Below are positions 45,515 to 47,790 of a stretch of 64,000 bases of DNA, piece after piece. Positions within the stretch are counted from its first letter, which is position 1. Every line of letters starts with the position of its first letter. The stretch is from the NCBI RefSeq assembly GCF_001618865.1, contig NZ_CP015136.1, positions 6,917,001 to 6,981,000 on the forward strand, in the 5' to 3' direction. A program made the translations under genes and the position numbers. Under the pieces are notes generated by a model. That model saw nothing but the letters and a program-made list of their open reading frames with translations, was not told the DNA's origin and made no database searches. This DNA is from Luteitalea pratensis (GTDB lineage: Bacteria; Acidobacteriota; Vicinamibacteria; Vicinamibacterales; Vicinamibacteraceae).

Positions 45515-45549
45515 AGGCGTCAGGCGTTAAGCGTTAAGCGTTAAGCGTT
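45515..45549. repeat. heptanucleotide array, 5 units, upstream of the tRNA
   Basis: Units are AGGCGTC, AGGCGTT, AAGCGTT, AAGCGTT, AAGCGTT with exact 7-base register, ending 18 bases before the tRNA. The array covers the expected -35 and spacer region of the tRNA promoter. Confidence 0.8.
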
Positions 45550-45567: not shown

Positions 45568-45643
45568 GGGCCCATAGCTCAGCGGTCAGAGCCGCCGGCT
45601 CATAACCGGCCCGTCCCAGGTTCGAATCCTGGTGGGCCCACCA
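45568..45643 (+). tRNA. tRNA with CAU anticodon (elongator Met or Ile2)
   Basis: 76 bases including an encoded CCA. The cloverleaf is complete: acceptor GGGCCCA / TGGGCCC, D-arm GCTC/GAGC, anticodon stem GCCGG/CCGGC with loop CTCATAA, and T-arm CCAGG-TTCGAAT-CCTGG. The G1-C72 pair rules out the usual initiator tRNA. CAU elongator tRNAs are either Met or lysidine-modified Ile2, and identity elements cannot be decided with certainty here. It anchors the accessory island that follows. Confidence 0.93.
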
Positions 45644-45664
45644 CTCCTCGCTTCGCTCGTCGTG

Positions 45665-46100
45665 TGGGCCCACCCGCCTTCCGCCTCACGGCTCCGCCTA
45701 CGGCTCGCCTCGAGGTCGAATCCTCACGACTGCGTCCGGTTCCGGCGCGCGCTCGTCCTGTGGGCCCACCCGCCTTCCGCCTCACGGCTCCGCCTACGGC
45801 TCGCCTCGAGGTCGAATCCTCACGACTGCGTCCGGTTCCGGCGCGCGCTCGTCGTGTGGGCCCACCCGCCTTCCGCCTCACGGCTCCGCCTACGGCTCGC
45901 CTCGAGGTCGAATCCTCACGACTGCGTCCGGTTCCGGCGCTTCGCTCGTCGGGTGGGCCCACCCGCCTTCAGGCCCTCCGGCTCCGGTCCTCCGGGCCTC
46001 GCCTACCGGGCTCGAATCCTGACGAACTGCGCCCGCCTCCGGCGCTTCGCTCGTCGGGTGGGCCACCCGCCTTCCGCCTGCGGCTCGCCTCGAGGTCGGC
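45665..46100. repeat. 96-bp tandem array containing tRNA 3'-end sequence
   Basis: Units start at 45665, 45761, 45857, 45954 and 46059 (spacings 96, 96, 97, 105; the last is partial). The first three are nearly identical. Each begins TGGGCCCACC, the 3' acceptor strand of the adjacent tRNA. Each of the first four contains a T-arm-like GAGGTCGAATCCTC or CTCGAATCCTG and ends CGCTCGTC. The array starts 21 bases after the tRNA. All six frames give only repetitive Arg/Ala/Pro-rich peptides, so it is not coding. Confidence 0.88.
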
Positions 46101-46390
46101 GATCTCGCGGGCCAACTGGTCGCGCTCGGCTTTCAGCGTCTTGATGGTCTCGCGGTAGCTCGATTCGATGTCGGAATCGGTTTCCCGTGAGAGTTTGCTC
46201 GCCAAGCCCCGGACCTCCTCGCCCTTGGCGTTGTGGCGGGCCTGCGGCGTGCGCAGGTCGCGCAGGCGGGCCTCGCGCTGCATGATGACGCCGCTCTCCT
46301 TTTCCGGAGCAGGATGGACGCGTGTTGGTTAGCGGCGACGTCAACGCAATCGACACGGTCGATGACCAGATCCACAAGACGGTTAGGCAT
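46085..46390 (-). pseudogene. phage-type structural/scaffold protein remnant, frameshifted and truncated
   Basis: From the ATG at 46390 the minus strand codes MPNRLVDLVIDRVDCVDVAA, then NQHASILLRK, the opening style (IDRVD-x-VD-x-x-AN) of phage prohead protease or scaffold-like proteins. The frame breaks at the run of four T (46300-46303 plus strand); one extra base restores K-E-S-G-V-I-M-Q-R-E and a helical stretch ending LAREIADLEAS. The C terminus then runs into the 96-bp repeat at about 46100. It looks like a decayed mobile-element gene. The family assignment is by resemblance only. Confidence 0.6.
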
Positions 46391-46679
46391 CGATCTCCCC
46401 TGTGCTTTCATCACGTGATGAAAGGTAAGAACTACATGCCCGATGGCGGGCCGAGCGCGCGCCCGCCCGTCCGGCCATCAAGGCGCACACCGAGGTCATC
46501 AGCGTGCGAGCCGAGGGGAGCAGATGTCTTCCGCAGTTGGGGTACCGGACACGCTGAGGCGAGATTCCGCCGCGGGGGCCACGCTTCGAGGAACGCATGT
46601 CGGTGAAGACACCCGACGAAACAGGCCGTCGCCAAGGGCGCATAGAATTGACTTCCAATTTTCCCGAAGAGGTGGGCAA

Positions 46680-47363
46680 ATGCCGAAGGCTAGTGCGCTC
46701 CGCTGTCTGATCGTGCTCTTGATGACGTCTCTCCCGAGGGAGGCTCCAGCCCAAGCGCCGCCGTCACCGTTTGCGGCCATCTATCCTGGCCGGTGTGAAA
46801 CGCCGGCCAGTGAGCGCACTGGGGATGCCGGTTGCTACTTGCTCACAACCGAACCCATGGACGGATTATCCGAGGCGGTCTACTGGCATCTCTACACCTA
46901 CCCGACACTGGCCATTGCGCAAGCGGCACGGTCCCGCAATGGTGTCGCGGTGCAGTCCCATGGCAAGTTCTGGGTGTTTACAGTCGCCGACCAACAATGG
47001 AAACCGGCGAATGGAGAGCGCGTGGCGGTCATTGGACCCCTCCATCTCGAGCGCGGCGCCCGATACACGGCGCGGTATATGGAATCAATCCTGCCGCCGG
47101 AGATGAGAGGGGGGGCCGGGCATACGCATTCTGGACCGGAGGCCTTCTACGTGTTGTCAGGCGCGCAGTGCCTGGAGACACCAGATGGCACAACGGTGAC
47201 CAACGCCGGCGAGAGCGTCATCATGCACACTGCCCACCCGATGACTCTGAGCGGCGTCGGGGCCGAGAACCGCAGGGCCGTGTTCATCGTTCTCCACGAC
47301 AGCGCCCAGCCGTGGATCACACGCGGGGGAACGTGGACTCCACCAGGTCGTTGTCCTCGATGA
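46680..47363 (+). CDS. secreted cupin-domain protein
   Basis: 227 residues from the ATG at 46680, preceded by AGAGGTGG. A signal peptide ends near APAQA. The second half is a cupin beta-barrel with motif 1-like HTHSGPEAFYVLSG and a motif 2-like segment around GESVIMHTAHPM, giving possible metal-binding His and Glu residues. Function is unknown; small cupins bind metals or sugars, or isomerise. The gene is visibly less GC-rich than its neighbours. It lies between the two copies of the tRNA-linked repeat, so it may be cargo of a former mobile element. Confidence 0.8.
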   Translation: MPKASALRCLIVLLMTSLPREAPAQAPPSPFAAIYPGRCETPASERTGDAGCYLLTTEPMDGLSEAVYWHLYTYPTLAIAQAARSRNGVAVQSHGKFWVFTVADQQWKPANGERVAVIGPLHLERGARYTARYMESILPPEMRGGAGHTHSGPEAFYVLSGAQCLETPDGTTVTNAGESVIMHTAHPMTLSGVGAENRRAVFIVLHDSAQPWITRGGTWTPPGRCPR

Positions 47364-47790
47364 CCTTGGAAGGGTGCCGGGAGCTGGGGCGGGTGCGTCA
47401 CGCGGCCATGCCGGCTCCCGCCATCAGGACACCCGCTGGAGCACGGCTTCCGGGTAGCGTCAGAGAGTGCTTGCAGGCCGCCCTTCGGGCAGGTGTCGCA
47501 GGCAGGTTCGTATCTGTGTGAGTACTACGGGCGCGACAGCCGATCCGAGGCGGGGATCGGCTGTCTGTCGCGGGGCTGGGCTACTTGGCGGCGGATCGGG
47601 GGGCGGATCGGCGCTGATCGGCGAGATTTCCGAGCGAACAAGTCGCTGCAGGGACGCGGCGGGGTCGGTGGCGAGGGTTTCGCGCGGGTTCGTACCGAAT
47701 CTTCACGACTGCGTCCGGTTCCGGCGCGAGCTCGTCGTGCGGGCCACCAGCATTCAGGCCCTCCCACGCTTCAGCGTTCGACGTTGGTCG
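47364..47790. other. non-coding stretch with a second copy of the tRNA-linked repeat
   Basis: No convincing gene. At 47695-47748, 54 bases match the middle of the 96-bp repeat unit (CGAATCTTCACGACTGCGTC..., then CGTCGTGCGGGCCACC) with a few mismatches and in the same orientation. This makes a direct-repeat partner of the array about 1.6 kb away. CAGCGTTCGACGTT after it resembles heptanucleotide words. Confidence 0.65.

Follow-up and report, generated by a model that had tools for sequence, protein, structure and literature searches.

Within the 64,000-nt window, the whole stretch of Luteitalea pratensis DNA analysed here, ARAGORN finds a single tRNA gene, with anticodon CAT, at positions 45,568–45,643 of the plus strand (Rfam RF00005, 66.5 bits). 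The gene is annotated as Met, with a body that we take to be probably that of tRNA-Ile2. Its 3′ end, from T55 to CCA (D0; 45,622–45,643, plus strand), is identified from the sequence as the presumed template of the repeats that follow. A weak trailer hairpin, h, leads from the tRNA end to the first inverted copy and holds only 2 pairs within itself (45,644–45,661, plus strand). Behind it lie four units of 96–97 bp and a fifth, split unit, all on the plus strand. Unit 1 (45,662–45,737; 58.0 bits with covariance model R1) comprises an inverted tRNA end, I (GTGTGGGCCCACC...CTTC), a core hairpin, C, and the start of a direct tRNA end, D (GGTCGAATCC). Unit 2 (45,758–45,833) scores 56.4 bits with R1, unit 3 (45,854–45,929) 58.0 bits and unit 4 (45,951–46,024) 51.6 bits. 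Unit 4 is diverged and has a core like those of congeners (CTCGAATCC box), the nearest being the Met core of the congener G001, at 0.89. The E-values of units 1–4 range from 7.7e-14 to 5e-12 with R1, a model built partly from two of them. TRF places the array at 45,649–46,090, with a period of 96 and 4.5 copies, and together with ARAGORN confirms the original prediction, made from the letters alone, of a tandem array of about 96-bp units adjoining a tRNA gene. The near-identity of the first three units and the divergence of the later ones are likewise borne out: units 1–3, at 96 nt each, differ pairwise by 1, 1 and 2 bases, unit 4 has diverged and unit 5 is incomplete. Just upstream of the tRNA gene, at 45,524–45,549, there is a perfect heptamer repeat, GCGTTAA, in 3.7 copies.

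The fifth unit is divided by about 1.6 kb of other DNA. Its left part, I and the core (46,047–46,098, plus strand; R1 16.8 bits, E 0.025), is cut in the T-loop box and stops with GGTCG at 46,098; its right part (47,696–47,764, plus strand) resumes with CGAATC and carries D, h, I and the start of a core, so that CG is present at both junctions. The right part was recognized as a member of the repeat family, with 94% identity over 50 nt, and also by the joining of its flank and by blastn. The array had been taken to end at 46,100, and this boundary is revised by the remainder of unit 5 lying about 1.6 kb further on. The inserted segment, delimited by these junctions (46,099–47,695), holds a minus-strand gene fragment, which is coiled-coil-like, and a cupin-like ORF with a weak Cupin_2 match below cut-off. 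The ORF over 46,087–46,283 has no Pfam match at E ≤ 0.01, and the best matches of the gene fragment are at E 0.084 among PHROGs and at E 0.71 among PDB chains. The 18-base sequence that the units were said to share with the truncated end of a phage-type gene is real (46,081–46,098) and is the core of the partial unit 5, but the phage-type assignment finds no support from Pfam, PHROG or PDB. In this one case, in the T-loop box of unit 5, an array copy of D may have served as an insertion target.

In the general plan of the repeat, the tRNA end D0 is followed by hairpin h, then by the inverted end I, the core hairpin C and finally the direct end D. Arm I usually starts as the complement of CCA and extends to the T-loop, C often has the form AGGC...GCTC with an asymmetric internal loop, and D spans T55 to CCA. 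The conserved parts of the unit are the tRNA end and CTTCAGGC/GCTCGA, and I, C and D together measure about 66–90 nt. A typical example is the unit at tRNA-Arg(CCG) in G001, with D identical to the tRNA end at 22/22 positions and I matching its complement apart from small insertions. In the window, the sequence TGGGCCCACC, with which each unit restarts, was at first described as the acceptor 3′ strand. It can be read either way because GGGCCC, the acceptor sequence of the window tRNA, is self-complementary; its reading as an inverted copy follows from the congener locus L035, where the letters that come next, CACCAGGATTC, are complementary to the T-stem. The same orientation is backed by tRNAs whose acceptor is not self-complementary (Asn, Arg, Ser, Lys and Glu). 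Derivation from the tRNA 3′ end therefore stands, while the strand assignment is best replaced by an inverted copy. The T-arm-like box reported in the first four units is present in all of them and is read anew as a decayed direct copy of the tRNA end. The D copies in the window keep the T-loop part alone, the rest having decayed, and good pairing of I is thus with D0 only. When the window trailer was shuffled, 26 of 2000 shuffles reached the same number of pairs with the tRNA end and 6 of 2000 an equally low energy.

The window array belongs to a family of palindromic, tRNA-matched repeats that is widespread in Acidobacteriota. In the genome of the window, units also occur behind tRNA-Pro(TGG), Lys(TTT), Asn, Leu(TAA), Ser(GGA) and Arg(ACG), and in G001 they are found in addition at Arg(CCG), Arg(TCG), Gln(CTG), Gln(TTG), Leu(GAG), Ser(CGA) and Ser(TGA). 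A scan of named genomes with an exact pattern returned one contig, from the MAG Ga0077522, and a strict pattern that caught 5 of 162 genomes of the order was replaced by the covariance model. R1 matches 41/162 of these genomes at E ≤ 0.01, an upper count that includes a few by chance, and 20/396 genomes sampled from the phylum at E ≤ 0.001, again an upper count, 11 of them from the order. Among the genomes outside the order, six have a tRNA in front of the match (five of genus g148, plus G398) and three have chance-like matches. At the 24 loci of the order that were read closely, a tRNA lies directly upstream in 19, L180 and L196 lie behind partial tRNA ends, L198 is chance-like, and L191 and L202 were assigned to neither class; chance-like matches also include L210, L211, L212 and L214. 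Analysis of 71 of 93 R1 matches (the 22 dropped were later array copies and six of L204) gave 62 with a same-strand tRNA within 700 nt. Of those, 53 are first units, from 31 genomes and 20 tRNA species by anticodon, all of them 14–49 nt behind the tRNA. A genus outside the order has the D-h-I part behind tRNA-Glu in 19 of its 21 genomes, where, by eye, the stem of h is TCGCGCC/GGCGCGA with variable loops and C-D units number from none to about five. The literature searched, largely without subscription papers, contained no description of such tRNA-matched repeats.

The arms of a unit resemble the tRNA that the unit follows. Compared with 35 tRNA ends, D is closest to its own tRNA in 37/53 first units and identical to it at 22/22 positions in 13/53, while I is closest to its own in 26/53 and has it among the top three in 39/53; a perfect 22/22 inverted copy is seen in 0/53. 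When the segment D0-h-I is folded, D and I form a median of 16 pairs, and at least 10 in 53/53 cases, compared with a median of 10, and at least 10 in 55%, for swapped I arms. The arms also follow their tRNA as it diverges. At positions where the ends of one isoacceptor are not the same in two genomes, I agrees with its own D in both of them 23 times, in one 35 times and in neither 4 times, against 2, 12 and 48 when I is swapped (33 non-independent pairs). With no preselection, an own-specific I or D was found at 7/44 and 12/43 tRNAs of G000 and G001, where about one would be expected from swapped flanks. This survey rests on 44 tRNAs found in each genome, 44 and 43 of which were read by script, and it misses some: PMC8852301 gives 55 tRNAs for the congener Luteitalea sp. 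TBR-22. When ranks were first compared over 220 nt, the result for I was weak (own tRNA best for I at 3/44 and 5/43, and for D at 5/44 and 10/43), and the tests at the expected arm position are stronger. Partly different tRNAs carry units in G000 and G001, and orthologous tRNAs can be without them. At the window tRNA itself, arrays were read in four congeners, and a significant own-matched I or D was found at 2/25 loci of other genera. The original prediction had held that an array unchanged in distant relatives without any mobile genes would speak against it; relatives do have arrays of the same kind, but these are diverged and not unchanged.

That prediction explained the array by att junctions, left and amplified when an element integrates at the tRNA 3′ end. 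Part of this is upheld, in that the units do derive from tRNA 3′ ends and are tandemly amplified. Several loci, read by eye, resemble island ends, with a partial tRNA end followed by a unit: L006, L257 and L180 (Lys CTT), L256 (Leu), L066 (Lys TTT) and L221 (Ser). The segment of about 1.6 kb inside the T-loop of unit 5, beside a gene fragment without a family match, also fits. The unit behind the partial ends, however, looks like pre-existing flank. Integration at a tRNA 3′ end gives direct repeats of that end, whereas these units hold a tRNA-matched inverted copy, which pairs with D0 in 53/53 first units, and a core hairpin, and they occur at 20 tRNA species. The integrase that was proposed to use this tRNA as its attachment site was sought among the seven proteins around the window array, the only neighbourhood annotated for genes, and none was found there; the gene fragment in the insert matched no family. 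Like the att sites of tRNA-integrating islands, the array duplicates tRNA 3′ ends; unlike them, its 96-bp unit has an inverted copy and contains neither integrase nor cargo. We therefore regard an origin as att junctions as very improbable.

Other sequences behind tRNA genes and tRNA fragments were seen in the course of this survey. Partial tRNA-Lys(CTT) ends with units and duplicated flanks occur in G000 at C1 positions 6,110,836, 6,115,347 and 6,132,892 (L258, L006 and L257), about 4.4 and 22 kb behind the full gene, and this series is perhaps the product of island accretion. At L256, a 3′ fragment resembling tRNA-Leu(GAG) carries a unit far from the intact gene, and the intact gene is without one. 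A second trailer motif, [AG]CCTTCG-hairpin-CTTCGG[CT](C)GGCAAGCC, was seen by eye right after the CCA of Thr, Ser, Gly, Tyr and Val tRNAs (L100, L150, L156, L182 and L122), in L182 behind the D copy of a unit. AT-rich trailers with AACAACTTACG-like words follow tRNAs without units at L091, L097, L116, L149 and L106 and are perhaps ends of integrated elements.

Whether the palindrome is maintained as DNA or as RNA bears on two further explanations. A transcribed RNA device would have I pair with the tRNA’s own tail or with a decoy D, affecting folding, processing or termination. The stable alternative hairpins and the occurrence of units across many genera are consistent with this, as is the covariation in alignment A1, which comprises 28 hand-picked units (a tRNA-Asp candidate of G001, whose fold departs from the plan, was omitted). 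In A1, 19/25 pairs have changes on both sides, and covariation is 0.284 against 0.124 when shuffled, above all 500 shuffles, and at most 0.110 when slid. Such compensatory pair changes are not decisive for RNA, because DNA template switching gives the same result. The core also contains a G-T pair found in 28/28 of the hand-picked units, alongside an asymmetric internal loop and A-C and C-T mismatches that are for the most part conserved; this near-invariant G-T pair fits RNA or recognition of one strand. Against an RNA role, G-T is no commoner than A-C in the base stem (71 vs 86), and the core has 18 G-T against 10 A-C without the near-invariant pair (91 vs 10 with it). Changes in arm I show no sense bias, with 38 of the sense-wobble and 44 of the antisense-wobble type over 67 units and 1399 positions. 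The absence of a G-U bias from the variable stems therefore favours, on balance, a DNA over an RNA process. At L185, a terminator-like hairpin between the tRNA and I forms the centre of the palindrome, whose arms extend outwards on both sides; the scan found 1 such hairpin where 0.5 would be expected by chance in that stretch. L208 has a similar hairpin with a T-rich tail by eye, of which the scan called only the later repeat downstream. These hairpins, and orthologous tRNAs that exist without units, also tell against a transcribed device, which we consider quite unlikely. The original suggestion that the array is read through from the tRNA as a set of tRNA-like decoys is weakened by the same lack of strand bias and by the hairpin at L185. 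In a separate comparison with known RNA families, Rfam yields tRNA only, and a known family was rejected: tRNA alone reaches the gathering cut-off in 18 loci, and at E ≤ 5 the window stretch gives tRNA only, apart from a sub-threshold antisense match on the tRNA.

The second explanation is selection for a DNA cruciform at highly transcribed tRNA genes, acting through topology, protein binding or a replication barrier. Both strands are equally constrained, which counts in its favour, and the retention of D-h-I behind tRNA-Glu in 19/21 genomes of one genus, judged by eye, also points this way. The minority of tRNAs that carry units in the test without preselection, and their partly different sets in sister species, argue against such selection and leave it, in our view, improbable.

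The reading that we prefer, tentatively and at a little less than an even chance, is that the array consists of DNA palindromes grown at tRNA 3′ ends, with template switching during replication forming the arms and maintaining their match, and with copies amplified through D. In a first step, synthesis across the tRNA tail would turn back at the small hairpin that follows CCA, and the stretch between CCA and the T-loop would be copied as the inverted arm I. A second turn may then take place at the T-loop (TTCGAA, itself palindromic), now the site of C, and would yield the direct copy D. The tandem copies observed would subsequently be gained and lost by recombination or slippage between copies of D. 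Finally, the observed match of the arms would be kept by quasipalindrome template switching, which may rewrite I from D, while tRNA function fixes D0. The scheme would require no dedicated function.

Several known processes provide the elements of this scheme. Template switching is known to make reverse-complement copies and repair stems (PMC8794818), to render quasipalindromes more perfect in E. coli (PMC7202029) and to homogenise the arms of inverted repeats (PMC8604942). As described there, quasipalindromes share with the present units inverted copies of neighbouring sequence, homogenised arms and compensatory changes without a G-U intermediate; here too the inverted arm matches and tracks the sequence next to it. 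The units differ from them in recurring at one gene class, in their shared core and in their tandem amplification. Inverted triplications, as outlined in PMC4689423, are recognized by copies in the order direct, inverted, direct that join at small inverted repeats. Both ODIRA, as given in that text, and the present units have this order, the first junction here being hairpin h and the second the T-loop palindrome that now holds the shared core. The yeast amplicons in the same text include a replication origin and a gene, whereas the arms here are about 22 bp.

The template-switching reading is at its weakest with the shared and conserved core, which suggests either descent with conversion among loci or a moving module. 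Template switching would be expected to remove the core's mismatches, its G-T pair and its asymmetric loop, or to leave them unshared, and they are counted against it. Also counted against it are the lack of a perfect inverted copy among the first units and, in the window, the decay of the D copies. Near-identical cores do occur at differing tRNAs, at Lys and Pro of G000 (0.94) and at Leu(gag) of G113 and Leu(taa) of G048 (0.92). Those cores and the conserved core architecture speak for a non-autonomous mobile hairpin cassette (h-I-C-D, about 75–105 bp), moved by a recombinase in trans and with its arms later rewritten at each tRNA. Tandem arrays resemble repeated integration, and, as a weaker point, the Arg(ccg) flank starts exactly at CCA in both genomes. 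For 31/47 first units, however, the nearest core of another genome lies at the same anticodon (2.9 expected), and most units therefore persist by descent. Insertion alone would also leave the tRNA-specific inverted arm unexplained. None of 2.9 million viral contigs holds the one exact core pattern searched for, and the best 10 of 72 plasmid records and the best 10 of 119 phage records match the tRNA part only (query positions 1 to at most 94). The sole recombinase family tested, Y1/RAYT (PF01797), is absent at E ≤ 1e-10 from G000–G005, with one match in G006. Taken as a whole, the cassette appears unlikely.

Empty sites, compared in ten cases, are compatible with more than one history. The Arg(ccg) flanks align exactly at CCA over 22 bases, with a score of 14 against noise of 12–17; Gln(ttg) gives an offset match by about one unit (score 68); Arg(acg) is aligned throughout, with no empty site; and 7 of the 10 comparisons gave nothing usable. 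Loss by recombination between D copies accounts for the empty sites as well as gain does.

Two established repeat systems invite comparison. In E. coli, the tyrT distal repeats (rtT RNA) stand in tandem directly behind a tRNA gene, and each contains a copy of the tRNA 3′ end. Tandem repeats with 3′-end copies behind a tRNA are common to both systems, but the present units measure about 96 bp, have an inverted tRNA end and a core hairpin, occur at many tRNAs and give no rtT match in Rfam. REP elements mobilised by RAYT are described in PMC3733652 as stem-loops of 20–40 bp with a terminal GTAG or CGTC. No such terminal motif was seen in the unit alignment. As that text has it, REP elements resemble these units in being short imperfect palindromes that are grouped and strain-variable; the present units differ in their place at tRNA ends and in arms specific to the host tRNA. 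Mobilisation by RAYT was rejected on the absence of PF01797, at the threshold given above, from G000–G005.

The finding has consequences for how repeats of this kind are understood. Beside template switching at each site, it is conceivable, though on present evidence rather doubtful, that the core hairpin spreads among tRNA genes, that the inverted and direct arms are copied at each site from the tRNA 3′ end, and that the array offers spare ends for integrating elements. If true, this would amount to a new, host-templated class of repeat, an element rewritten by its target. Template switching at tRNA ends would in turn provide a natural, repeated experiment on this process in bacteria, in which dozens of inverted arms can be set against a template fixed by selection. 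Strong compensatory covariation may arise without selection on RNA, a warning for the discovery of RNA families. Recognition of these tRNA-tail repeats would also allow them to be told apart from the genomic-island att sites that they mimic.
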